Assembly (NCBI RefSeq): GCF_000211835.1
Contig: NZ_AEGR01000040.1
Coordinates: forward strand, 1 to 43,900
Length of the DNA stretch: 43,900 nt
Source: Hylemonella gracilis ATCC 19624
GTDB taxonomy: Bacteria > Pseudomonadota > Gammaproteobacteria > Burkholderiales > Burkholderiaceae_C
Direction of reading: 5' to 3'
Position numbers and translations under genes: made by a program. The notes under the pieces were generated by a model. That model was not told the origin of the DNA and did no database searches. It saw only the letters and a program-made list of their open reading frames with translations. Each line of letters starts with the position of its first letter. The first letter of the stretch is position 1. Shown here in pieces: positions 6,282 through 43,676 of this stretch.

Positions 6282-7016
6282 TTACTTGCCGGGATGCACG
6301 CCGACCAATTTCAGCCCGGGCATCAGGTTGGCGGCCAGTTCCGGTCGTTCCGACGCGTAGTCCAGGTTCATGCGGGCAATCTCCACATGTTCCTCGCCCA
6401 GGGCCTGGGCGCGTGCGCCCTGGCCGCGTTCGATGGCCTGGACCAGGGCGTGGTGCTGGCGATGGGCCTGCTGCATCCACTGGTGGCCTTCTTCCATCGA
6501 TGACTGCATGGGCAGCATGGCGCTGGGAGCGGCGAACGGCTGCCCCATCAGGGATTCCATGCTCCGCTTCAGTGCCGCGTTGCCGCAGCCGTCCATGATG
6601 AGTCGGTGGAAGGTGTCGTTCATTTCGACATAGGCGGCATAGTCATCCAGGTCCATGCGCGCCTTGTAGACCGCTTTGTCGCCCGCGCTCAAGCAGTCGT
6701 GCAGGGCCCTGAGCAGCGGCCGGGTCGCGCCTTCCTCTGCCAGCAGGCGTGCGGCGAAGCCTTCAACCAGGCCCCGCACGCGGATCGCATCGGAGATCTC
6801 GCGCAGGGTGAAACGACGCATCTGATAGCCCCCGCCGGGCGACGGTTCGATCAGCCCTTCGTGCTCCAGGCTGCCCAGCGCGAGGCGGACCGGCGTGCGT
6901 GAGGCGCCTAGCCGCTCGGCCAGCGGGATCTCGGCCAGGCGTTCGCCCGGGACAAATTCCCCCTTGAGGATCATGTCCCGTAGCTGAACCAATACGCGCG
7001 ATTGTTGAGAGTCCAT
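6282..7016 (-). CDS. GntR-family transcriptional regulator, FCD (FadR) subfamily
   Basis: A 244-residue DNA-binding repressor or activator. Residues 1-70 form the winged helix of GntR proteins, with LRDMILKGEFVPGERLAEIPLAERLGASRTPVRLAL covering the recognition helix. The remainder is an all-helical FCD ligand domain with a plausible metal/ligand pattern (MNDTFHRLIMDGCGN and HRQHHALVQAIERG, giving spaced histidines). The frame is open 30 codons further upstream; MDSQQSRVLV is preferred because it fits the family N-terminus. It is divergent from the Rieske oxygenase gene and is the obvious candidate to control that cluster in response to the substrate. The ligand is unknown. Confidence 0.9.
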   Translation of the reverse strand: MDSQQSRVLVQLRDMILKGEFVPGERLAEIPLAERLGASRTPVRLALGSLEHEGLIEPSPGGGYQMRRFTLREISDAIRVRGLVEGFAARLLAEEGATRPLLRALHDCLSAGDKAVYKARMDLDDYAAYVEMNDTFHRLIMDGCGNAALKRSMESLMGQPFAAPSAMLPMQSSMEEGHQWMQQAHRQHHALVQAIERGQGARAQALGEEHVEIARMNLDYASERPELAANLMPGLKLVGVHPGK

Positions 7017-7096
7017 GTGGTGGCTTGTATGCACGCAGTGCGGGAATCTTAACAGCAGCCAATTTGGCATACCGAGTTGTAAATCTGGCCTAAATA

Positions 7097-7106
7097 ATGC
7101 ATGCAT
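7097..7106. promoter_or_regulatory. Palindrome ATGCATGCAT, candidate GntR site
   Basis: A perfect 10-base palindrome in the AT-rich divergent control region, 80 bases upstream of the regulator start. It shares the core TGCATGCA with the second palindrome at 7252-7265, consistent with two sites for one dimeric regulator. Binding is inferred. Confidence 0.4.
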
Positions 7107-7215
7107 AAAAACGGAGTGGTGAAATTCTGAGAGATGAATCTACCTAAATGCCCAATTAAATGGCAATAAATATCAGTGTTAACCACTAATTTTGAGGAAA
7201 ACAAGGCAACCATCC

Positions 7216-7245
7216 TTGATGAATGCCGGCTTTGGCAGAAATAAT
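7216..7245 (+). promoter_or_regulatory. Candidate promoter of the Rieske cluster
   Basis: TTGATG (7216-7221) and AATAAT (7240-7245) are 18 bases apart. The predicted transcription start coincides with the palindrome at 7252-7265, a layout expected for repression by steric block. The surrounding 7040-7250 stretch is conspicuously AT-rich compared with the coding DNA on either side. Confidence 0.4.
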
Positions 7246-7251
7246 GAATTC

Positions 7252-7265
7252 GATTGCATGCAATC
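7252..7265. promoter_or_regulatory. Palindromic operator GATTGCATGCAATC
   Basis: A perfect 14-base palindrome located 35 bases before the Rieske oxygenase start. Its ATTGCATGCAAT core resembles the ATTGTATACAAT type of sequence bound by several FadR/VanR-type GntR regulators. A half-site-like CAATC repeat (TGCAATCG) follows at 7270-7277. It is the best operator candidate in the window. Confidence 0.55.
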
Positions 7266-7300
7266 AAGTGCAATCGTCAGTCCGATTGGAGCCTTTCTTT

Positions 7301-8623
7301 ATGATCAGTGCCGAACAAAATGATTTCATGACCCAGGTTGGTGCCGGAACGCCAGCCGGAACCCTGCTGCGCCGCTATTGGCAACCCGTGGCTCTGTCGG
7401 AAGAACTGAAGGGGCCCCGGCCACTCAAACCCGTGCAGCTCATGGGTCAGCACTTCGTGCTGTTCCGCGACGAGAGCGGCCGCCTAGGCTTGCTGGACAG
7501 AGATTGCCCCCATCGTGGCGCGGACCTGGCGTACGGTCGGCTCGAGGATGGCGGGCTGCGCTGCGCTTTCCACGGCTGGTTGTTTGACGCGACCGGTCAA
7601 TGTCGCGAGACGCCAGCCGAGCCCGTGGGCAGCAAGCTGTGCACGCGCATCAGGCAGGGCGCCTACCCGGTCGTCGAAAAAAGCGGCGTGATCTTCGCCT
7701 ACCTGGGCGAAGGCGAACCGCCGGCCTTCCCGGAGTTCGATTGCTTCGTCGCGCCCGACAGCCACACCTTCGCGTTCAAGGGTCTGTGGGAATGCAATTG
7801 GCTGCAGGCGCTGGAAGTCGGCATGGACCCAGCCCATGCGTCCTTCCTGCACCGCTTTTACGAGGACGAAGACACCGCCGAAAGCTACGGCAAGCAGTTC
7901 CGCGGCGCGTCGGCCGACTCGGACCTGGCCATCACCAAGGTGCTGCGCGAATACGATCGTCCGGACATCCACGTGCAAGCCGCGCCGTTCGGCATGCGCC
8001 TGACCACCTTGCGCAAGCTGACCGAGGCGCAGACCCATGTGCGCGTCACCAACGTGGTGTTCCCGCAGGCCTTCGTGATTCCGATGAGCACCGAGATGAC
8101 GATCTCGCAGTGGCACGTGCCCGTGGACGACCACCGCTGCTACTGGTATGCCATCTTCACCAGCTTCACCAAGCCGGTGGACAAGCAGCAGATGCGCGCA
8201 CAACGCCTGGAAACCATCGAGCTGCCCGACTACATCTCGCGCAAGAACAAGCGCAACGAATACGGCTACAGCGCGGAAGAGCAGGCCACCAAGACGTACA
8301 CCGGCATGGGCATGGACATCAATGTGCATGACCAATGGGCCTGCGAATCCATGGGCTCGATCCAGGACCGCACGCGCGAGCACCTGGGCACGACCGACAA
8401 GGGCATCGTGGCTTACCGCCGCCTGCTGGTGCAGGCCATCGAGGCCGCGCAGGCGGGTGCACCGGTGCCGGTGCGTCCTGACGCGGCCCAGGCCAGCGCC
8501 TTGACCGGGCCGCCGTCCATCGATGGCGTGGCCAGCGTCGACGCTGTCGACGGCTATTGCGAACAGGCCGACCGGGCGCGGCGCCTGAACTGCGACTGGG
8601 CCAGCGCGCGCCTGAAGGACTGA
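7301..8623 (+). CDS. Rieske non-heme iron oxygenase, large subunit
   Basis: This 440-residue protein is the terminal oxygenase of a multicomponent system that uses O2 and electrons to hydroxylate, dihydroxylate or demethylate its substrate. The Rieske [2Fe-2S] ligands are Cys69-x-His71 and Cys88-x2-His91. The mononuclear iron motif is Asp176-x2-His179-x4-His184 in the DPAHASFLH stretch, with Asp176 as the likely bridging residue. The C-terminal DRTREHLGTTDKGI segment is typical of phthalate-4,5-dioxygenase/LigXa-type single-subunit oxygenases. ATG 7301 is chosen (GGAG at 7288-7291); an upstream in-frame ATG would run over the operator. No beta subunit is present. Electrons are probably supplied by the ferredoxin and reductase genes downstream. 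The substrate is not deducible. Confidence 0.93.
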   Translation: MISAEQNDFMTQVGAGTPAGTLLRRYWQPVALSEELKGPRPLKPVQLMGQHFVLFRDESGRLGLLDRDCPHRGADLAYGRLEDGGLRCAFHGWLFDATGQCRETPAEPVGSKLCTRIRQGAYPVVEKSGVIFAYLGEGEPPAFPEFDCFVAPDSHTFAFKGLWECNWLQALEVGMDPAHASFLHRFYEDEDTAESYGKQFRGASADSDLAITKVLREYDRPDIHVQAAPFGMRLTTLRKLTEAQTHVRVTNVVFPQAFVIPMSTEMTISQWHVPVDDHRCYWYAIFTSFTKPVDKQQMRAQRLETIELPDYISRKNKRNEYGYSAEEQATKTYTGMGMDINVHDQWACESMGSIQDRTREHLGTTDKGIVAYRRLLVQAIEAAQAGAPVPVRPDAAQASALTGPPSIDGVASVDAVDGYCEQADRARRLNCDWASARLKD

Positions 8624-8635
8624 GGTTCAACGCCC

Positions 8636-10075
8636 ATGAGCGATTTCATTGAGCGTTTCGGTCTCTGGTCTGCCGACCAGCAGGTCCAGGCCCGGGAACT
8701 GCTGGCCCGGCTCGACAGCGGCGAGGTGGACGTGGTCCGTTTCGCCTGGGCCGACCAGCACGGCATCCTGCGTGGCAAGACCCTGGTGACCGAGGCCGCG
8801 CGGGGTGCTTTCAAGCGCGGCGTGAATCTGACCACCACCTTGCTGGCCAAGGACACCTCGCATCGCACGGTGTTCCCGGTCTTCACCAGCGGCGGGGGCT
8901 TCGACCTTCCCGGCCTGCAGGGCGGCGCCGACTTCGTCATCGTGCCTGACCCGGGCACGTTCCGCATGTTGCCCTGGGCGCCGCGCACCGCCTGGGTGCA
9001 GTGCGACGCCTACATGAAGGATGGGCAGCGTTGCCCCTTCGACACTCGCCGCATCCTCCAGCGCGCGGTGGAACAGGTCCACGCGCAAGGCTTGAGCTTC
9101 GTCGCGGGCCTGGAAGTGGAGTTCCATGTCTTCAAGCTCGACGAGCCCGCCATGCGCTTGGCCGACTCCGGCCAACCGGGCGAGCCCCCGAAGGTGTCCC
9201 TGCTGACGCATGGCCACCAGTACCTGACCGAGCTGCGTTATGACAGCGTCGACCCGCTGATGGAACTGCTGCGCGACCAGCTGATGGCCCTGGGTTTGCC
9301 CCTGCAATCGCTGGAGATCGAATTCGGCCCCAGCCAGTTCGAGCTGGTCTTCGGCCCGACGCGGGACATGATGCCGGCCGACACCATGGTGCTGCTGCGC
9401 AGCGCGATCAAGCAGATCTGCCGCCGACATGGCTACCATGCCACCTTCATGTGCCGCCCGCGCATTCCGAACGTGATGTCCAGCGGCTGGCATCTGCACC
9501 AGTCCCTCTGCCACCAGGCCGATGGCCGCAACGCCTTCGTGCCCGAGCAGGACGGCGCCAGCCTGAGCCCCCTGGGCCTGCACTACCTGGCCGGCCTCAA
9601 GGTCCATGCCTGCGGCAGCGCCGCCCTGGCCAGTCCCACGCTCAATGGCTACCGCCGTTACCGGCCTTTCTCGCTGGCACCAGACCGGGCGATCTGGGCC
9701 CACGACAACCGCGGCGCGATGCTGCGCGTGCTGGGCGCGGTCGGTGACAGCGCCTCCCGCATCGAAAACCGCATCGGCGAGCCCACGGCCAATCCTTATC
9801 TCTACCTGGCCTCGCAGCTGTACTCCGGCCTGCACGGCATGGCGGAGCGTCTGGACCCCGGCCCTTCGGCCGATGCACCCTACGAAACGCCGGCCGAACA
9901 ACTGCCCCGCACACTGGGGGATGCGCTCAACGCTCTCAAGGCGGACCGTTGGCTGTGCGCGCAGTTCGGCCAGGGTTTCGTCGACTACTACTGCCACATC
10001 AAACAGGCCGAGATCGCACGCTTCAACCTCGAGGTGAGCGAATGGGAACAGCGCGAATACTTCGACATGTTCTGA
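8636..10075 (+). CDS. Glutamine-synthetase-like ATP-dependent ligase
   Basis: A 479-residue member of the glutamine synthetase fold. Recognisable blocks are the metal-binding GLEVEFHVF (Glu160, Glu162), SLEIEFGPSQFEL (Glu227, Glu229), the SSGWHLHQSL ATP/metal block (His286, His288), NGYRRYRP, and RIENRIGEPTANPYLYLA. In catabolic settings such proteins (for example the aniline-pathway TdnQ/AtdA1, IpuC, or GMAS) join glutamate to an amine through a gamma-glutamyl bond. That role is inferred here from its position 12 bases after a Rieske oxygenase gene; true nitrogen-assimilating GlnA is less likely in this context. It could instead amidate an acid. RBS evidence is weak, but the start is fixed by the gap. 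Confidence 0.88.
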   Translation: MSDFIERFGLWSADQQVQARELLARLDSGEVDVVRFAWADQHGILRGKTLVTEAARGAFKRGVNLTTTLLAKDTSHRTVFPVFTSGGGFDLPGLQGGADFVIVPDPGTFRMLPWAPRTAWVQCDAYMKDGQRCPFDTRRILQRAVEQVHAQGLSFVAGLEVEFHVFKLDEPAMRLADSGQPGEPPKVSLLTHGHQYLTELRYDSVDPLMELLRDQLMALGLPLQSLEIEFGPSQFELVFGPTRDMMPADTMVLLRSAIKQICRRHGYHATFMCRPRIPNVMSSGWHLHQSLCHQADGRNAFVPEQDGASLSPLGLHYLAGLKVHACGSAALASPTLNGYRRYRPFSLAPDRAIWAHDNRGAMLRVLGAVGDSASRIENRIGEPTANPYLYLASQLYSGLHGMAERLDPGPSADAPYETPAEQLPRTLGDALNALKADRWLCAQFGQGFVDYYCHIKQAEIARFNLEVSEWEQREYFDMF

Positions 10076-10097
10076 GCCTGCCCGGACACCGAATGCC

Positions 10098-10421
10098 ATG
10101 CCCACCATCCACTACATCCTGAAGGACGGCAGCACGCGCAGCGTCGAGGCCAAGCCCGGCGCCAGCGTGATGGAGACCGCCATCCGCCACAACATCCGCG
10201 GCATCGACGCCGAGTGCGGCGGCAGCTGCTCCTGCGCCACCTGCCATGTCTACGTCCTTGAGTCCGACCTGCCCAGGCTGACGCCGCCCGACGAGATGGA
10301 AGACGAGTTGCTCGATGGCACCGCCAGCGCGCGCGCGCCCAACAGCCGCCTGAGCTGCCAGATCACCGTGACGGCCGGGCTCGACGGCCTGACCGTGCGC
10401 GTGCCGGAGACCCAGGTCTGA
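10098..10421 (+). CDS. [2Fe-2S] ferredoxin, adrenodoxin/putidaredoxin type
   Basis: A 107-residue soluble electron carrier. The cluster ligands are Cys40, Cys46, Cys49 and Cys87, spaced as in putidaredoxin (C-x5-C-x2-C and a distant Cys), within DAECGGSCSCATCHVYV and RLSCQITV. An extra Cys44 lies inside the loop. It probably passes single electrons from the adjacent FAD reductase to the Rieske oxygenase. The stop overlaps the reductase ATG by one base (TGATGG), so the pair is translationally coupled. Confidence 0.94.
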   Translation: MPTIHYILKDGSTRSVEAKPGASVMETAIRHNIRGIDAECGGSCSCATCHVYVLESDLPRLTPPDEMEDELLDGTASARAPNSRLSCQITVTAGLDGLTVRVPETQV

Positions 10422-11674
10422 TGGCCCGGTCCGAGCCCCTGCTCATCGTCGGTGCCTCGCACGCCGGCACCCAGCTTGCCGCCGCCGCGCGTGAGCAAGG
10501 CTTTGACGCGCCCATCGTGCTGCTGGGCGACGAGCCGCACACGCCTTACCAGCGCCCGCCGCTGTCCAAGGGTGTGCTGACTGGTAAGACTGAGGTGGAC
10601 CAGCTCGCGCTGCGCGGCCCCGACTTCTACCGCGAGCAGGGGATCGACCTGCGCCTGGGCGTCCGCGTCACGGGCCTGGACCTGAGCACGCGGCGCCTGC
10701 GCCTGGCGGATGGTGGACAACTGGACTTCGGCTGGCTGGCCCTGGCCACGGGCGCGCGCTGCCGGCCACTGCCGGTGCCCGGCGCCGACCTGCAGGGCGT
10801 GCACATCTTGCGCACCCTGGACGACGCACAAGCCGTGGTGGCCGCGCTCGGTGCCAGCCAACGCGCCTGCGTGATCGGCGGCGGCTTCATCGGTCTCGAG
10901 GTGGCCGCGGCCCTGAGCAGCGTGGGTGCCAGCGTCACCGTGGTCGAAAGCCAGCCGCGCCTGCTGGCCCGCACCTTTCCCGCCGCCATGTCGGACTACG
11001 TGGCCGACGCGCATCGACGGCGCGGTGTCGCGCTGGCGCTGGGCTGTGGCGTGCGTGCCCTGCACGGGCACCAGGGCCGGGTGGTGGCGGTGGAACTCGT
11101 CGATGGACGGCGCATCGATTGCGACCTGGTGGTGCTCGGCATCGGGGTGCAACCCAACAGCGAACTCGCCGAGCAGGCCGGCATCGCTTGCGACAACGGC
11201 ATCCTGGTCGATGCCCTGGGCCGCAGCAGCGCGCCGAATGTGCTGGCCATCGGCGATGTCGCCAACATGGCGCTTGCGGCCGTGCCCGGTGGTCCCCAAC
11301 GCGCGCGCCTGGAATCGATCCAGGCCGCGAACGACGGCGCCCGTGCTGCCGCCACGTTGCTGGTCGGTCGGCCCCAGCCTCTGGATGCCGTGCCCTGGTT
11401 CTGGAGCGAGCAGCACGAGCTGAAGTTCCAGATGGCTGGCCTGCCCGCGCCGGGGGACCAGACCGTGCTGCGGGGCGAGCTGGCCAGCGACAAGTTCACG
11501 CTGTTCTACCTGCGCGAGGGCGCCGTGCGCGCCGCGCACACGGTGAACCGCCCGGCCGAGCACATGCTGGCGCGCAAGCTGATCGCACAGGGCGCGCGCA
11601 TCGCGCCCGAGCTGTTGGCCGATCCGTCGGTCGATCTGAAGTCCTTTTTCACCCCCCCTCGGCCTGCGGGCTGA
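10421..11674 (+). CDS. FAD-dependent ferredoxin reductase
   Basis: A 417-residue NAD(P)H:ferredoxin reductase of the putidaredoxin/rubredoxin reductase type. The FAD dinucleotide motif is LLIVGASHAGTQLA near the N-terminus, the NAD(P)H motif is CVIGGGFIGLEVAAAL near residue 150, and the second FAD motif is APNVLAIGDVA near residue 275. A C-terminal reductase domain follows (WFWSEQHELKFQMAG). It should take electrons from NADH and reduce the ferredoxin encoded immediately upstream, completing a three-component oxygenase. It overlaps the ferredoxin stop. Confidence 0.94.
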   Translation: MARSEPLLIVGASHAGTQLAAAAREQGFDAPIVLLGDEPHTPYQRPPLSKGVLTGKTEVDQLALRGPDFYREQGIDLRLGVRVTGLDLSTRRLRLADGGQLDFGWLALATGARCRPLPVPGADLQGVHILRTLDDAQAVVAALGASQRACVIGGGFIGLEVAAALSSVGASVTVVESQPRLLARTFPAAMSDYVADAHRRRGVALALGCGVRALHGHQGRVVAVELVDGRRIDCDLVVLGIGVQPNSELAEQAGIACDNGILVDALGRSSAPNVLAIGDVANMALAAVPGGPQRARLESIQAANDGARAAATLLVGRPQPLDAVPWFWSEQHELKFQMAGLPAPGDQTVLRGELASDKFTLFYLREGAVRAAHTVNRPAEHMLARKLIAQGARIAPELLADPSVDLKSFFTPPRPAG

Positions 11675-11695
11675 TCTTTTCCACGGAGCACCACG

Positions 11696-12874
11696 ATGAA
11701 CCTCTCCAAACGCACCTTGCTGGCAGGCCTCGCGCTGGCCACTCTGGGCGCCGTCGCTCAGGCGCAGGACGCCCTCAAGATCGGCCTGATCGGCACCTAC
11801 TCTGGTCCGTACGCCGACTACGGTCGCCAGTTCGACGCCGGTGTCGCGCTCTACCTGAAAGAGAACGGCGGCAAGATCGCCGGCCGCACGGTGGAGATCG
11901 TCAAGAAGGACACCGGGGGCGCCAACCCCGACGCTTCCAAGCGCATCGCCCAGGAACTGATCGTGCGCGACAAGGTGCAGATCCTCACGGGTCTGGACTT
12001 CAGTCCCAACGCCTACGCCGTTGCCGCCGTCGCCACCCAGGCCAAGGTGCCGGTGGTTGTCATGAACGCCTCGTCCTCGGCGATCACGAGCAGCTCGCCC
12101 TACGTGGCGCGTCTGTCCTTCACGGTGCAGCAGGTCTCCGATCCGATGGCGCGCTGGATGCTCAAGCAAGGCATCAAGGAATCTTATGTGGTGGTGGCGG
12201 ACTATGCCCCGGGCGTTGATGCGCTGACCGCGTTCAAGAAAGCCTTCGAGCAGGGCGGTGGCAAGGTCGTGGGCGAGCTGCGCACGCCCATGAGCAACCC
12301 GGACTTCTCGGCCTATGTGCAGCGCATCAAGGATGCCAAGCCGCAATCCGTCTTCTTCTTCTTCCCCTCGGGCGTGATGCCGCCGGCCTTCCTCAAGGTC
12401 TGGAAAGAGCGGGGCATGGACGCCGCTGGCATCAAGCTCTTCGCCACGGGCGAGGCCACCGACGACAGCTACCTGGACGCGACCGGCGACGTGGCCCTGG
12501 GCCTGATCACCAGCCACCACTATTCGTATGCCCATCCCTCGGCCAAGAACCAGAAGTTCGTCAAGGACTTCGAGGCCCAGTTCGGCACCAGCCTGCGCCC
12601 GAGCTACTTCGCCGTGACCGCCTATGACGCCATGACCGCGATTGACCAGGCGCTCAAGAAGACGGGCGGCGACCTGAATGGCGACAAGGTCATGGAAGCG
12701 CTGAAGGGTTTGAAGTTCGAGAGCCCGCGTGGCCCCGTCGAGATCGACCCGGTCACCCGCGACATCGTGCAGACGGTGTACATCCGCAAGACCGAGAAGG
12801 TGGGCGGCAAGCTGGTGAACGTGGAGTTCGACAAGTTTGACCGCGTGAAGGACCCGGCCAAGGAAGCGCCCTGA
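11696..12874 (+). CDS. ABC importer substrate-binding protein, LivJ/HAAT type
   Basis: A 392-residue periplasmic protein with a signal peptide (KRTLLAGLALATLGAVAQA, cleavage after about residue 23). The mature start DALKIGLIGTYSGPYADYG and a leucine-binding-protein-like two-lobed architecture place it in the branched-chain amino acid type family (Peripla_BP_6). Members also bind aromatic acids, amides and other catabolic substrates, so the ligand is open. CGGAGCACCACG precedes the ATG. It lies 21 bases after the reductase gene in the same operon and should capture the substrate of the oxygenase. Confidence 0.93.
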   Translation: MNLSKRTLLAGLALATLGAVAQAQDALKIGLIGTYSGPYADYGRQFDAGVALYLKENGGKIAGRTVEIVKKDTGGANPDASKRIAQELIVRDKVQILTGLDFSPNAYAVAAVATQAKVPVVVMNASSSAITSSSPYVARLSFTVQQVSDPMARWMLKQGIKESYVVVADYAPGVDALTAFKKAFEQGGGKVVGELRTPMSNPDFSAYVQRIKDAKPQSVFFFFPSGVMPPAFLKVWKERGMDAAGIKLFATGEATDDSYLDATGDVALGLITSHHYSYAHPSAKNQKFVKDFEAQFGTSLRPSYFAVTAYDAMTAIDQALKKTGGDLNGDKVMEALKGLKFESPRGPVEIDPVTRDIVQTVYIRKTEKVGGKLVNVEFDKFDRVKDPAKEAP

Positions 12875-12900
12875 GTCCGGCGGCATCTGGCCGCAGTATC

Positions 12901-12943
12901 CTGCGCGGGCCGAACGCCATCCGGCGGGCCGGCCCGCGCGCAG
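12901..12943 (+). other. GC-rich hairpin between binding-protein and permease genes
   Basis: CTGCGCGGGCCG (12901-12912) pairs with CGGCCCGCG...CGCAG (12930-12943) apart from a small bulge. No T-run follows. Such stem-loops after periplasmic binding protein genes often protect the upstream mRNA from 3' exonucleases and raise expression of the binding protein over the permeases. That role is inferred. Confidence 0.5.
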
Positions 12944-12956
12944 CAATGGAAATTCG

Positions 12957-13814
12957 ATGGCTATCGTGATCTTTGACGGAGTGGCCTACGGCATGCTCCT
13001 CTTCCTCATGGCGGTGGGCTTGTCCATCACCATGGGCCTGATGAACTTCGTCAACCTGGCGCATGGCAGTTTCGCCGTGGTCGGCGGCTACGCCGCCGCC
13101 GTGGTGATGAACCAGCTGGGCCTGGGATATGCCACGGCCCTGGCCTGCGCCTTCGTGGTCGCTGCCCTGGTGGGTGCGGTGCTCGAATTTCTGCTCTACC
13201 GCCGGCTGTACCGCGCCCATCCCCTGGACCAGGTGCTGCTGTCCATCGGTTTGGTCTTCGTGTCCATTGCCTCGCTGACTTACTTCTTCGGTCCCTCCAT
13301 GTTGCCCTTCCATCTGCCCGAGGCGCTGCAAGGCCAGGTCACGATCGGGGGTGTCGGCGTGGGGCGTTACCGCCTCTTCCTGATCGGTGCGGGACTGCTG
13401 ATCCTCGTGCTGCTGCTCGGCATGCTGCGCACGCGGTACGGCGCCATGGTGCGCGCCGCGGTGGACAACCAACGCGTGGCTGCGGGCACGGGCATCCACG
13501 TGCAGCGGCTCTTCCTCCTGACCTTCGCCCTGGGCTGCGGTCTGGCCGGACTGGGCGGCGCCCTGAGCCTGGGCATGCTGGGCCTGGAGCCGTACTTTCC
13601 GCTCAAGTACATGGTGTACTTCCTGATCGTGGTCTGCGTGGGCGGCGCCGGCACCATCGTTGGCCCCTTCGTGGCGGCCCTGCTGGTCGGCATCGTGGAC
13701 GTGGCGGGCAAGTACTACTTGCCCGAGGCCGGCGCCTTCCTGATCTATGTATTCATGATCGGCATGTTGCTGCTGCGCCCTAACGGCATCATTCCGCGCA
13801 AGGGCCTCGCATGA
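12957..13814 (+). CDS. Branched-chain-type ABC importer permease, LivH type
   Basis: A 285-residue inner membrane protein with about eight hydrophobic segments. The N-terminal GLMNFVNLAHGSFAVVGGYAA and the C-terminal VVCVGGAGTIVGPFVAALLVG are the LivH signatures. It pairs with the LivM-type permease to form the translocation channel. The ribosome-binding site is weak (ATGGAAATTCG before the ATG). The gene end overlaps the next start as ATGA. Confidence 0.92.
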   Translation: MAIVIFDGVAYGMLLFLMAVGLSITMGLMNFVNLAHGSFAVVGGYAAAVVMNQLGLGYATALACAFVVAALVGAVLEFLLYRRLYRAHPLDQVLLSIGLVFVSIASLTYFFGPSMLPFHLPEALQGQVTIGGVGVGRYRLFLIGAGLLILVLLLGMLRTRYGAMVRAAVDNQRVAAGTGIHVQRLFLLTFALGCGLAGLGGALSLGMLGLEPYFPLKYMVYFLIVVCVGGAGTIVGPFVAALLVGIVDVAGKYYLPEAGAFLIYVFMIGMLLLRPNGIIPRKGLA

Positions 13815-14776
13815 AACGACTCGCACTTTCCTCGGCGCAACTTCGTGCCGCAGAGTTGGCCTTCTGGCTGCTGCTGGGCAGCAGCTTCTTCCTCGCGCCC
13901 GACCACCTGACGCTGCTGAGCCAGATCCTGATCTTCGGCCTGTTCGCGGTCTCGCTGGACATGGCCTTGGGTTACGCCGGCATCCTGACGGTGGGTCATG
14001 CCGCCTTCTTCGGCGCCGGGGCCTATGCCGCCGGCCTGCTGGCCCGTCATGGCTGGGGTGAGCCCTTCACCGGCCTGCTGACCGCGCTGGCCGTGGCGGG
14101 CACGCTGGGTTACGTGCTGAGCTACATGGTCGTGCGCGGCGCGGACCTGACGCGACTGATGATCACCATCGGCGTGTGCGTGCTGCTGTACGAACTGGTC
14201 AACCGCCTGTCCGGCATCACCGGCGGCACGGATGGGCTGCAGGGCATGACGGTGTGGCCCGTGGCCGGTCTGTTCGAGTTCGACTTGTTCGGCAAGACGG
14301 CCTTCGTCTATGCCTATGCCATGGTGCTGCTGATGTTCCTGCTGGTGCGCCGGGTGCTGCGCTCGCCGTTTGGCCTGGCATTGCGCGGCATCCACGACAA
14401 CCGCCGGCGCATGCTGGCCATCGGCTCGCCGGTCGAATCGCGGCTGCGCATGGCCTATGCCTTCTCGGCCGCCATCGCCGGCGTGGCCGGCGCCTTGCTG
14501 GCGCAGACCACGCAGTTCGTGGGCATCGAATCGATCAGCTTCAACCGTTCCGCTGAGATCCTGATCATCCTGGTGCTGGGGGGTACAGGTCGCCTGTACG
14601 GCGGCTTGATCGGCGCCATCGTCTACATGCTGGTGCACGACGGGTTCGCCGACCTCAATCCTGAGTATTGGATGTTCTGGCTGGGCTTGTTCCTGATCAC
14701 CGTCGTGATGGTTGGCCGCGGCGGCATCATGGGCCTCCTGTCTCGACTGGTGCGCATCAAGGAGCCAACACGATGA
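13811..14776 (+). CDS. Branched-chain-type ABC importer permease, LivM type
   Basis: A 321-residue multi-spanning inner membrane protein. The segment VSLDMALGYAGILTVGHAAFFGAGAY and the distal LIILVLGGTGRLYGGLIGA are typical of LivM proteins. It forms the second half of the transmembrane channel with the LivH-type protein. It overlaps both neighbours by four bases (ATGA), showing tight translational coupling through the transporter genes. Confidence 0.92.
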   Translation: MKRLALSSAQLRAAELAFWLLLGSSFFLAPDHLTLLSQILIFGLFAVSLDMALGYAGILTVGHAAFFGAGAYAAGLLARHGWGEPFTGLLTALAVAGTLGYVLSYMVVRGADLTRLMITIGVCVLLYELVNRLSGITGGTDGLQGMTVWPVAGLFEFDLFGKTAFVYAYAMVLLMFLLVRRVLRSPFGLALRGIHDNRRRMLAIGSPVESRLRMAYAFSAAIAGVAGALLAQTTQFVGIESISFNRSAEILIILVLGGTGRLYGGLIGAIVYMLVHDGFADLNPEYWMFWLGLFLITVVMVGRGGIMGLLSRLVRIKEPTR

Positions 14777-15552
14777 GCACTCTCGCACTCGAAACCCAGG
14801 GGCTGGGCATCCGCTTCGGCGCCTTCCAGGCCGTGGCCGAGGTCAACTTGCAACTGCAGGTGGGCGCGCGCCAGGCGCTGATCGGCCCCAACGGCGCCGG
14901 CAAGACCACCCTGATCAACCTGCTCACCGGGGTCTACAAGCCGACGGCGGGCAGCATCCGCATGAACGGACAGGACATCACGGTGCACGCGGCCGATCGC
15001 CGCGCGCGCAATGGCCTGGCCCGCACCTTCCAGATCAACCAGCTGTTCCCGAGCCTGACGCCCTTGCTGTCGGTGGTGCTGGCCATCCACGAACGCGAAG
15101 GCCAGGGCGCGACCTGGTGGCGCCCCTACCAGCGCAGCACGGCCTGCTTCGACGAAGCCCATGCGCTGCTCAAGCGTCTGCGCCTGGACGCGCTGGCCCA
15201 GGTGCCCGTGGCCGAGCTGGCCTATGGCAAGCAGCGCCTGCTGGAGATCGCGCTGGCGCTGGCCGCGCGGCCGCGCATCCTGCTGCTGGACGAACCCGCG
15301 GCCGGCGTGCCCGAGGATGAGAGCGGCGAGCTGTTCGACGTGATCGGCGAACTGCCTTCGGACATCAGCGTGCTCTTCATCGAGCACGACATGAAGCTGG
15401 TGTTCCGCTTCGCCCAGCGCATCTCGGTGCTGGTGGCTGGGCGCATCCTGACCGAGGGCGCACCACGCGACATCGCCCACGATCCCCGCGTGCGCGAGGT
15501 TTACCTCGGCAGCACCCACGTGGGCATCCACCCGGAGACTGCCCATGGCTGA
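14773..15552 (+). CDS. ABC importer ATPase, LivG type
   Basis: A 259-residue cytoplasmic ATPase powering the importer. Walker A is GPNGAGKTT (about residues 38-46) and Walker B is ILLLDEP. The signature is a variant, LAYGKQRLLEIA, in place of LSGGQ, which is common among LivG proteins. The switch histidine is in LFIEHDMKLV. The frame extends upstream, but MSTLALETQG overlapping the livM stop is the natural start. It overlaps the LivF-type gene by eight bases. Confidence 0.94.
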   Translation: MSTLALETQGLGIRFGAFQAVAEVNLQLQVGARQALIGPNGAGKTTLINLLTGVYKPTAGSIRMNGQDITVHAADRRARNGLARTFQINQLFPSLTPLLSVVLAIHEREGQGATWWRPYQRSTACFDEAHALLKRLRLDALAQVPVAELAYGKQRLLEIALALAARPRILLLDEPAAGVPEDESGELFDVIGELPSDISVLFIEHDMKLVFRFAQRISVLVAGRILTEGAPRDIAHDPRVREVYLGSTHVGIHPETAHG

Positions 15553-16258
15553 GCTTCTCGCCTTTGATCGAGTCACGGCCGGCTACGGCAACGCCGTGGT
15601 GCTGGACAAGCTGAGCCTGACCTTGGCGCAGGGCCAGAGTCTGGCCATCCTGGGGCGCAATGGCGTGGGCAAGACCACCCTGCTCGAAACCCTGATGGGC
15701 AACACCCGCGTGACGGGCGGCGCCATCCGCTGGCGCGGACAGGACATCACGCACCTGCCCGCCCATCTGCGCGTGCGCGCGGGCCTGGGCTGGGTGCCGC
15801 AGGAGCGCGAGGTCTTTCCCTCGCTGATGGTGGAGGAGAACCTGAGCGTGGTCGCGCGCCCGGGCGCCTGGACGCTGGACCGCGTCTACGGCTTCTTTCC
15901 GCGCCTGCGCGAGCGGCGGGCCAATTACGGCAACCAGCTCTCGGGCGGTGAGCAGCAAATGCTGGCCATCGGCCGCGCGCTGATGACCAACCCGGTGCTG
16001 CTGCTGCTCGACGAACCCATGGAAGGCCTGGCGCCCATCATCGTCGAGGAGCTGGCGGCTTCCATCCGCCGACTCTGCGAGGACGAGGGCCTGGCCTCCA
16101 TCGTGGTCGAGCAGCACCCGGTGCTGGCGCTGGACATGACGCACCAGGCCATCGTGCTGGAACGCGGCACCGTGGTCCACGCTGGTCCGAGCGCGGCGCT
16201 GGCGGCCGATCAAGCGCTGCTGGATCGCCTGCTGGGCGTGGGCATCGAGGCCACCTGA
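15545..16258 (+). CDS. ABC importer ATPase, LivF type
   Basis: A 237-residue ATPase forming the nucleotide-binding pair with the LivG-type protein. It has Walker A GRNGVGKTT, the signature LSGGEQQMLAIGRAL, Walker B LLLLDEPMEGLAP and the switch histidine in VVEQHP. These are the standard LivF features. It starts inside the end of livG and completes a five-gene importer set (binding protein, two permeases, two ATPases). Confidence 0.94.
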   Translation: MAELLAFDRVTAGYGNAVVLDKLSLTLAQGQSLAILGRNGVGKTTLLETLMGNTRVTGGAIRWRGQDITHLPAHLRVRAGLGWVPQEREVFPSLMVEENLSVVARPGAWTLDRVYGFFPRLRERRANYGNQLSGGEQQMLAIGRALMTNPVLLLLDEPMEGLAPIIVEELAASIRRLCEDEGLASIVVEQHPVLALDMTHQAIVLERGTVVHAGPSAALAADQALLDRLLGVGIEAT

Positions 16259-16291
16259 GTCCAGGACTTTCAAACCAAGCCGTTCCCGTTC

Positions 16292-16657
16292 ATGCCCCAC
16301 ATCGTTGTCGAATACACCCCCAACCTGGGGCATCTTCCGTTCCAGGACATGCTGGCGGCCGTGACGCGCCGGCTGGCCGCCAGCCCCGAGATCGGGGACG
16401 AAGCCGATCTGAAGGCGCGTGTCCTGCGCGCCGAGGCTTTTCGCGTGGGGCTCGCGGACGAGGGGCGTGGTTTCATCCACGTCACCCTGCGCATCCTGGC
16501 TGGGCGCAGTCCGCAGGCGAAGAAAGACCTGAGTCAGCGCGTCCTTGCCGGCATGCGCGAGCACATGCCCTCGCTGCCTGCCGCGCTCACGGCCTACTTG
16601 AGCGTCGAGGTGGTGGACATGGACCGCGAAAGCTATGGCAAGGTCCGCCTGGGCTGA
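16292..16657 (+). CDS. Tautomerase, 5-carboxymethyl-2-hydroxymuconate isomerase-like
   Basis: A 121-residue protein starting MPHIVVEYTPNL, so that Pro1 becomes the catalytic N-terminal proline after Met removal. The length and the later FIHVTLRILAGRS segment fit the CHMI (HpaF) branch of the tautomerase superfamily rather than the 60-residue 4-oxalocrotonate type. CHMI-type enzymes isomerise unsaturated ring-cleavage products in aromatic degradation. It lies 33 bases after livF on the same strand, so it is probably the last gene of the Rieske cluster, hinting at an aromatic substrate. Confidence 0.85.
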   Translation: MPHIVVEYTPNLGHLPFQDMLAAVTRRLAASPEIGDEADLKARVLRAEAFRVGLADEGRGFIHVTLRILAGRSPQAKKDLSQRVLAGMREHMPSLPAALTAYLSVEVVDMDRESYGKVRLG

Positions 16658-42785: not shown

Positions 42786-43676
42786 ATGAGCGAGATCAGC
42801 TCCGAGCCTGTGCTCACCTACCTGCGTCAGCCCAGCCGACCAGCCTTGCGGCTGCCGGCCGGGGCCTGTGATGCCCATGTGCACGTGTTCGGACCGGCCG
42901 CCACCTACCCTTACGCGCCACAGCGCCACATGACGCCCGAGGACGCGCCGCGCGAGACGCTGTTCGCCCTGCATCGGCATCTGGGCATCGAGCGCTGCGT
43001 GATCGTGCAGTCGGTGGTGCATGGCCTGGACAACCGCGTCGTCGAGGACGCCATCGCGGCCGGCCAGGGCCGTTACCTGGGCGTGGCGCTGGTCGATGTC
43101 GGCGTGCCCGATGAGGAGCTGCGCCGCCTGGCCGCCGCGGGTTTTCGTGGCGTGCGCTTCAACTTCATGCAACGGCTCGGCGCGCCGACTCCGGTCGAGC
43201 CGGTCATCGCGCTCAGCCGCCGCTTGGCCGAGCAGGGCCTGCATCTGCAGGTGCATTTCGAGAGCGCGCTCATCCATGGGCTGGGGCCCGCGCTGGCCCA
43301 GAGCGCCGTGCCGGTGGTGATCGACCACATGGGGCGCGTCGACGCGGCCTTGGGCGCGGGGCATCCTGATTTCCAGGCCTTGCTGCGCCTGATGGAGAAC
43401 CCCTTGTTCCGCGTCAAGGTCAGCGGCATCGATCGCATCGATGCGCAGGCGCCCGCGGACCGCCGCTACGTTGCCGGAGTCGCCCTGGCCCGTCAGCTCG
43501 TGGAGCGCTTTCCCGACCGCTGCTTGTGGGGCACGGACTGGCCGCATCCCAACCACACCCATGTGCCCGACGACGGCGCCTTGGTGGACGCGCTGGCGCA
43601 GATCATGCCGGACCGGGCTCATCTGGAGCAGGTCCTGGTCCACAACCCGCTGCACTTCTACAGGTTCCCCGCATGA
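42786..43676 (+). CDS. Amidohydrolase, 2-pyrone-4,6-dicarboxylate lactonase (LigI)-like
   Basis: A 296-residue TIM-barrel hydrolase. The active-site blocks are CDAHVHVFGP (His31, His33), VVHGLDNR, GVRFNFMQRL, VVIDHMGR (His181) and LWGTDWPHPN (Asp251). These match, from memory, LigI, which hydrolyses the lactone of 2-pyrone-4,6-dicarboxylate in protocatechuate 4,5-cleavage, and related sulfomuconolactone hydrolases. The exact lactone substrate here is not settled. GAAGAAGAAC precedes the ATG. It overlaps the next gene as ATGA, so the two form an operon divergent from LysR. Confidence 0.88.
   Translation: MSEISSEPVLTYLRQPSRPALRLPAGACDAHVHVFGPAATYPYAPQRHMTPEDAPRETLFALHRHLGIERCVIVQSVVHGLDNRVVEDAIAAGQGRYLGVALVDVGVPDEELRRLAAAGFRGVRFNFMQRLGAPTPVEPVIALSRRLAEQGLHLQVHFESALIHGLGPALAQSAVPVVIDHMGRVDAALGAGHPDFQALLRLMENPLFRVKVSGIDRIDAQAPADRRYVAGVALARQLVERFPDRCLWGTDWPHPNHTHVPDDGALVDALAQIMPDRAHLEQVLVHNPLHFYRFPA

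Follow-up and report, generated by a model that had tools for sequence, protein, structure and literature searches.

Introduction

Bacteria that degrade aniline and chloroaniline glutamylate the amine and only then dioxygenate the ring, as far as the cited part of the account goes (PMC4539516). These systems employ a two-subunit oxygenase with a partner of the ferredoxin--NADP reductase type. A simpler arrangement is the sad operon of Hydrogenophaga intermedia PBC, found by transposon mutagenesis, which holds the dioxygenase gene sadA, a glutamine synthetase (GS) gene, sadB, and a ferredoxin gene; the enzyme is a 4-aminobenzenesulfonate 3,4-dioxygenase, and the cited passages leave its natural substrate open while expecting a natural compound similar to 4-aminobenzenesulfonate (PMC5632844). 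Here we examine a related operon of ten genes in Hylemonella gracilis ATCC 19624. It lies within a stretch of 43,900 nucleotides, referred to below as the window, that forms positions 1–43900 of contig NZ_AEGR01000040.1 in a genome of 3.6 Mb.

The window operon shares the dioxygenase, GS-like and ferredoxin genes with sad, and adds a ferredoxin reductase, a LIV-type ABC importer and a CHMI-like tautomerase. An original prediction, made from the DNA alone, regarded a single-subunit oxygenase paired with a GS-like ligase as without precedent, a view that the gene content of the sad operon does not support. It also proposed that an imported amine is first glutamylated and then oxidised. Gamma-glutamylation by the GS-like enzyme and Rieske oxygenation of an imported aromatic amine are indeed very probable, whereas dioxygenation that expels the amino group is favoured over the dealkylation once considered. 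As to the substrate, the evidence narrows it to an aromatic amine with a negative charge. The best candidate is 4-aminobenzoate, a reading to which we assign a probability of roughly 0.64.

Results

The pairing of oxygenase and ligase is strongly conserved. In all 90 close loci, fetched by GS similarity (80 from named genome contigs and 10 from plasmids), the Rieske gene stands directly upstream of the GS gene on the same strand, an order kept too faithfully to be due to chance. Some of these loci are near-duplicates (L027 and L028, for instance, are both E41), and two were excluded before counting, namely an aniline control (L010) and a locus with Rieske and GS genes on opposite strands (L012). 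Among 150 genomes of the family, the window's own included, the oxygenase is present in 33 and the ligase in 33, with the two side by side in 30; the original prediction had proposed a search for such co-occurrence, and adjacency in 30 of the 33 oxygenase-bearing genomes, as in the 90 loci, is what it returned. The oxygenase lacks an adjoining ligase in G064, G115 and G009, and GS is found without the oxygenase in G065 and G095; in G114 such a GS gene is present as an additional, second copy. Partner genes vary over the 90 loci, with a ferredoxin match in 49, a reductase match in 44, all five importer genes in 47 and a homologue of the GntR/FCD regulator in 57.

A second clade of oxygenase-ligase pairs, examined in 12 loci of 14–15 kb (L103–L114), is more distant (ligase ~44–53%, oxygenase ~47–62%). 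The importer binding protein finds no match in these 12 loci, seven of which carry an ABM-domain gene near the ferredoxin. This clade may be of the sad type, and we suspect that the Sad proteins belong to it. The oxygenase-ligase operon is, then, a real and widespread catabolic module, whose pairing of ligase and oxygenase is already known in kind from sad. Two side observations concern individual loci. On a Polaromonas JS666 plasmid (L005:4517-8893), a gene annotated as a CBASS oligonucleotide cyclase and its neighbours lie just upstream of the catabolic operon; and an amidohydrolase (PF07969 in L116) that might free 4-aminobenzoate from an amide or ester is encoded at L116:13034-14785 and also in L006, L027, L032, L034, L039 and L077.

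Phylogenetically, the window ligase falls within a 39-row clade that includes NpaA1 and the ligases of aniline-type loci (support 100/100), apart from E. coli PuuA, E. coli GlnA and the genome's own GlnA-like gene, in a tree whose long outgroup branches were flagged. Clustering with GlnA or PuuA, an outcome that the original prediction had named as fatal to it, is thus not seen; the ligase groups with NpaA1. Like NpaA1, its nearest solved relative, and GoaS, it keeps the catalytic residues of GS (those for glutamate, ATP and metal) and has lost the GlnA flap glutamate, Glu327; it differs from both in that its partner is not a two-subunit oxygenase. We infer that the GS-like protein is active as a ligase.

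The amine tunnel of NpaA1 is narrowed by Phe75, Phe86 and Trp235, with Phe75 at the entry, according to the cited section of its description (PMC11335346). Lys72 of the window ligase aligns with Phe75, and lysine is found at this position in 94 of 94 close ligase rows (window included), in all 12 second-clade rows and in L012, L125 and L127. The six loci with two-subunit oxygenases have F, F, H, F, V and F here, Streptomyces L124 has F and PuuA has M. The Phe86 position is Phe or Tyr in 94/94 close rows, and Val201 of NpaA1 is replaced by Tyr in the window ligase. A lysine in place of the tunnel phenylalanine implies an anionic amine as substrate, and its side chain could form a salt bridge with an acidic ring substituent.

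The oxygenase, for its part, has the phthalate/isophthalate dioxygenase fold, with Rieske and LigXa_C domains. The phthalate and isophthalate dioxygenases of Comamonas testosteroni KF1 share this fold and the carboxylate-binding arginine at 29–30% identity; we know of no ligase partner for them. That arginine (R234 of isophthalate dioxygenase, R244 of phthalate dioxygenase) aligns with Arg274 of the window enzyme and is kept in 100/100 rows after 8 short rows were dropped. Relatives in two marine Rhodobacterales, Pseudooceanicola and Palleronia, keep the catalytic domain and have lost the Rieske cluster motif (L132:16052-17725; L131, 53685-55352 of NZ_CP136760). A separate small Rieske protein of 132 residues, with the motif, adjoins the oxygenase in Pseudooceanicola, and an unannotated 66% relative of it is encoded just upstream of the oxygenase in Palleronia. 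Among the next best plasmid matches are Rieske domains from oxygenases of the present operon (53% in Polaromonas). The marine enzyme resembles a Rieske oxygenase of one chain that has been split between two proteins.

The importer points to a benzoate-like solute. Its binding protein is closest, by sequence and by fold, to the LIV-type 4-hydroxybenzoate and vanillate binders of R. palustris (best chains by VIA; model pLDDT 91.5). Those binders have no link here to an operon of ligase and oxygenase, although no search was aimed at one. The last gene of the operon encodes a protein that satisfies the Pfam CHMI profile and has a proline after the initiator methionine; it scores 27.5 bits against the NCBIfam isomerase equivalog, short of the cut-off of 215, and its related solved chains are 4nwp, 3e6q, 4jcu and 1otg. 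CHMI-domain genes also follow the ligase in Palleronia, in Pseudooceanicola and on a plasmid of the sulfanilate degrader Novosphingobium SA1.

Profile scans detect no amidotransferase gene in the window's operon. The original prediction had said as much, and this holds for the operon itself, but 26 of the 90 relatives carry a GATase (16 loci) or C26 hydrolase (10 loci) gene in the locus. The CHMI-like gene is present in 10 of the 90 and never together with either, a weak indication that CHMI and GATase/C26 are alternatives (P 0.026, ignoring kinship). Because no locus combines CHMI with a gamma-glutamyl amidotransferase or hydrolase gene, our guess is that the CHMI-like protein assists in removing or re-aromatising an intermediate that has stalled.

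Evidence on the product comes from the neighbours. The window's genome encodes LigA, LigB and LigK over cut-off, together with a LigI-like protein, in one stretch. In G082 the GntR, Rieske, GS and ferredoxin genes adjoin ligA, ligB, ligK and LigC-, LigI- and LigJ-like genes, where the LigC- and LigJ-like names are our assignments by family and place; an aldo/keto reductase gene lies between the two gene sets and TRAP transporter genes within the lig operon. The lig-type genes of G082 are 74–86% homologues of the LigA/B/K/LigI-like stretch in the window's genome, LigC- and LigJ-like genes too. In the marine Palleronia, the oxygenase, an ABC transporter of another kind, the ligase and a CHMI-domain gene are followed by pcaB, D, G, H and C within ~14 kb. 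Genome-wide, LigA or PcaH is found over cut-off in 32 of 33 oxygenase-positive genomes as against 79 of 117 others (Fisher p 1.9e-4, uncorrected for kinship or genome size), and the sole oxygenase-positive genome without either is G131, whose completeness is 87% and whose LigA-family match stays below cut-off. Homologues of PnbB, a 4-hydroxylaminobenzoate lyase by its Pfam name (two proteins scanned), occur in 10 of the 90 close loci, nine of which also have a gene for a nitroreductase or a PcaK-like protein; the base rate is 28 of 150 genomes. Two further genes may be recorded here: a gallate dioxygenase over cut-off elsewhere in the genome (L120:5931-7214), and, near the window end at 42786-43676, an Amidohydro_2 protein with 45% identity to the LigI-like protein.

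The operon faces its regulator across an interval that contains all three copies of TGYATGCA/TGCATRCA found in the 43.9 kb window. Among 57 relatives with a divergent GntR gene and a Rieske gene, 48 have at least one such site in the intergenic interval and nine have none (three second-clade and six close loci). In total 102 sites fall in 14.6 kb of regulator-oxygenase intervals, versus 49 in 1.12 Mb elsewhere. The enrichment of the TGCATGCA motif is partly circular because the k-mer counts that yielded the motif were made on an overlapping set, although the sites counted elsewhere provide an inner control. An FCD operator of the TNGTNNACNA type was not found in 10 of 11 loci inspected. The GntR/FCD protein would act through TGCATGCA-like sites.

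The layout given in the original prediction, ten genes in one direction facing a divergent GntR/FCD gene, is reproduced by open reading frame coordinates and profile matches alike (Table 1). Four of the nine operon junctions overlap by 1–8 nt, and the other gaps measure 12, 22, 21, 82 and 33 nt. The regulator probably starts near 6974 rather than 7106 (gene caller: 6282-6974). The oxygenase probably starts at the ATG at 7301, residue 27 of a frame open from 7223, because the Polaromonas gene, as annotated, begins at this point in the alignment and the putative operator copy at 7255 falls within the supposed extension. For the first ATPase gene the corrected start is 14773.

Table 1. Features of the operon and its regulatory region (window coordinates)
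Feature	Position	Strand	Basis
GntR/FCD regulator	6282..7106	-	Pfam FCD 68.6 bits, GntR 53.1 bits, both over cut-off
Putative operator sites TGYATGCA/TGCATRCA	7026, 7098, 7255 (interval 7026..7262)		Motif search
Single-subunit Rieske oxygenase, phthalate/isophthalate dioxygenase type	7301..8623	+	Rieske and LigXa_C domains, fold
GS-like ligase	8636..10075	+	Gln-synt_C 269.8 bits; nearest solved chain 8wwu (NpaA1), 431 bits; tree
2Fe-2S ferredoxin	10098..10421	+	Fer2 47 bits, over cut-off
FAD ferredoxin reductase (AndAa/HcaD-like)	10421..11674	+	Pyr_redox_2 223 bits, Reductase_C 110 bits; AndAa model 332.9 bits, below cut-off
LIV-type solute-binding protein, para-hydroxybenzoate class	11696..12874	+	Peripla_BP_6 249 bits; nearest solved chain 4ey3, 395 bits
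LIV-type permease 1	12957..13814	+	BPD_transp_2 111.5 bits
LIV-type permease 2	13811..14776	+	BPD_transp_2 114.1 bits
ABC ATPase 1 (LivG-like)	14773..15552	+	LivG model 203.8 bits, below cut-off
ABC ATPase 2 (LivF/UrtE-like)	15545..16258	+	UrtE 226.4 bits, LivF 186.3 bits, both below cut-offs
CHMI-like tautomerase, Pro after Met	16292..16657	+	Pfam CHMI 60.3 bits, cut-off 26.5

Ribosomal protein genes, presumably the S10 operon by their content, precede the operon and are followed by a redoxin gene, which forms one flank; GNAT and cytochrome b561 genes form the other. Neither oxygenase nor ligase is found at E 1e-100 in the sample's two other members of the genus (G014, G145), where redoxin and cytochrome b561 genes are ~1.5 kb apart as against 11.1 kb here; the operon was therefore gained here or lost there. 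It is kept at the same site in Hylemonella gracilis Niagara R, which supplies the best named match to the ligase gene (95%).

Discussion

Taken together, gene content and residue conservation suggest the following pathway. The LIV-type transporter would import 4-aminobenzoate, which the GS-like ligase, as a gamma-glutamyl-4-aminobenzoate synthetase, would join to L-glutamate at the expense of ATP, giving N-gamma-glutamyl-4-aminobenzoate. Electrons would pass from NADH through the FAD reductase and the ferredoxin to the Rieske oxygenase, acting as a gamma-glutamyl-4-aminobenzoate 3,4-dioxygenase on the ring carbon that bears the amine and on the one next to it. The product, being unstable, would lose its nitrogen as glutamine, or as glutamate and ammonia, to leave protocatechuate, which would be handed to the protocatechuate 4,5-cleavage enzymes of the genome. 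The sad report expects a natural substrate resembling 4-aminobenzenesulfonate; 4-aminobenzoate is the obvious candidate. Homarine catabolism, our first guess, was dropped; a literature search gave nothing useful for it.

Several observations weigh against 4-aminobenzoate and protocatechuate as the two ends of this route. The substrate itself is shown by no locus, and the related binding proteins are known to bind hydroxybenzoates, not aminobenzoates. The lysine argument is drawn from aligning the window ligase with NpaA1 rather than from a structure of its own. Close physical linkage to ring cleavage is rare: LigA lies within 10 kb of the operon in one of 33 genomes (G082) and ~24 kb away in G113, the 90 close loci contain no match to pcaB, G, C or ligA, B, K, and the only pcaH and pcaD matches there are at 27% (L060) and 30% (L071). 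The Palleronia oxygenase, beside its pca genes, is distant (51%) and has lost its own Rieske ligands, with a separate Rieske protein just upstream. PnbB shows no genome-wide co-occurrence (6 of 33 oxygenase-positive genomes versus 22 of 117 others), and in none of the 150 sampled genomes does it lie within 20 kb of the oxygenase. Hydrogenophaga intermedia, moreover, requires 4-aminobenzoate as a vitamin and yet has the sad operon, as stated in the cited part of the sad report (PMC5632844). Lastly, the SA1 plasmid carries a relative of the pair (GS 57%, Rieske 62%) near a maleylacetate reductase gene, which makes it probable that the family is able to handle further anionic aryl amines.

The same chemistry might act on a different anionic aromatic amine, such as 3-aminobenzoate, an aminosalicylate or an amino-hydroxybenzoate, and yield protocatechuate or a near relative. 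The lysine of the entry loop and an importer of the benzoate class would suit any aminobenzoate, and the protocatechuate links would fit 3-aminobenzoate as well, but two observations favour the para isomer: 10 of 90 loci have PnbB neighbours, and the ligands bound by related binding proteins are para-substituted. We regard this alternative as unlikely. Less probable still is a sad-like system in which 4-aminobenzenesulfonate is glutamylated and dioxygenated to 4-sulfocatechol. The kinds of genes are the same as in sad, the SA1 relative sits near maleylacetate reductase, and regulator, Rieske and GS genes occur in Pigmentiphaga kullae K24 (L057), a strain isolated on Orange I, which is cleaved to sulfanilic acid according to the cited excerpt (PMC2858024). 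The known 4-sulfocatechol route, however, is of the pcaH2G2 type in the passages cited (PMC5632844), and in the window's genome nothing matches PcaH at 1e-30 and PF00775 gives a single match, of 59.7 bits. The benzoate-class binding protein also speaks against sulfanilate, as does the expectation of a natural substrate in the cited part of the sad paper.

That the operon converts uncharged aryl amines to catechol, as an aniline-type system would, is very improbable. Its ligase does share a clade with the ligases of aniline-type loci, and those systems glutamylate and then dioxygenate as proposed here, with a GATase gene in 16 of 90 relatives of the window operon. Queries with the alpha and beta subunits of aniline oxygenase, however, match nothing in the window or the 90 loci while finding both subunits in six control loci, and the exchange of the tunnel Phe for Lys and the class of importer argue in the same direction. 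As a separate observation, the two-subunit aniline-type oxygenase genes of Variovorax SRS16 are duplicated after the ligase (L123:8299-13467). Scarcely credible is the idea that the GS-like gene encodes a housekeeping or polyamine ligase that stands beside the oxygenase by accident. In its favour, the curated models that fit the protein best are those of gamma-glutamylputrescine synthetase and GlnA, although all of them score far below cut-off; against this are its adjacency to the oxygenase in 90/90 loci and 30/33 genomes, its place in the tree, and the presence in the genome of three other PF00120 genes, one of them GlnA-like with the flap Glu.

A wider reading may be built on 4-aminobenzoate as substrate: a dedicated 4-aminobenzoate-to-protocatechuate pathway of many proteobacteria, based on glutamylation and Rieske deamination, whose function was ancestral and from which the sulfanilate-degrading sad operons were recruited. 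In this reading, ligases for anionic amines are recognised by a lysine in their amine tunnel, the CHMI-like protein provides a new means of clearing a glutamyl intermediate, and the marine oxygenase is split, with its Rieske cluster transferred to a small protein of its own. It is doubtful that all of these parts hold jointly.

Implications

In the open literature searched we found no published 4-aminobenzoate pathway with a ligase and a Rieske enzyme, though one may exist. Growth on 4-aminobenzoate is described, in the portions cited, for Cupriavidus metallidurans CH34 (PMC8879955) and for Alcaligenes aquatilis QD168, whose authors found no genes for this growth (PMC6460240). If the proposed pathway is correct, it would assign genes to a step of 4-aminobenzoate degradation that lacks them, for example in QD168, and would connect the protocatechuate pathway with folate-precursor turnover. 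It would supply a residue rule for reading ligase specificity, and it would give the pollutant-degrading gene pair of the sad type, whose natural substrate the sad paper leaves open, a natural role.

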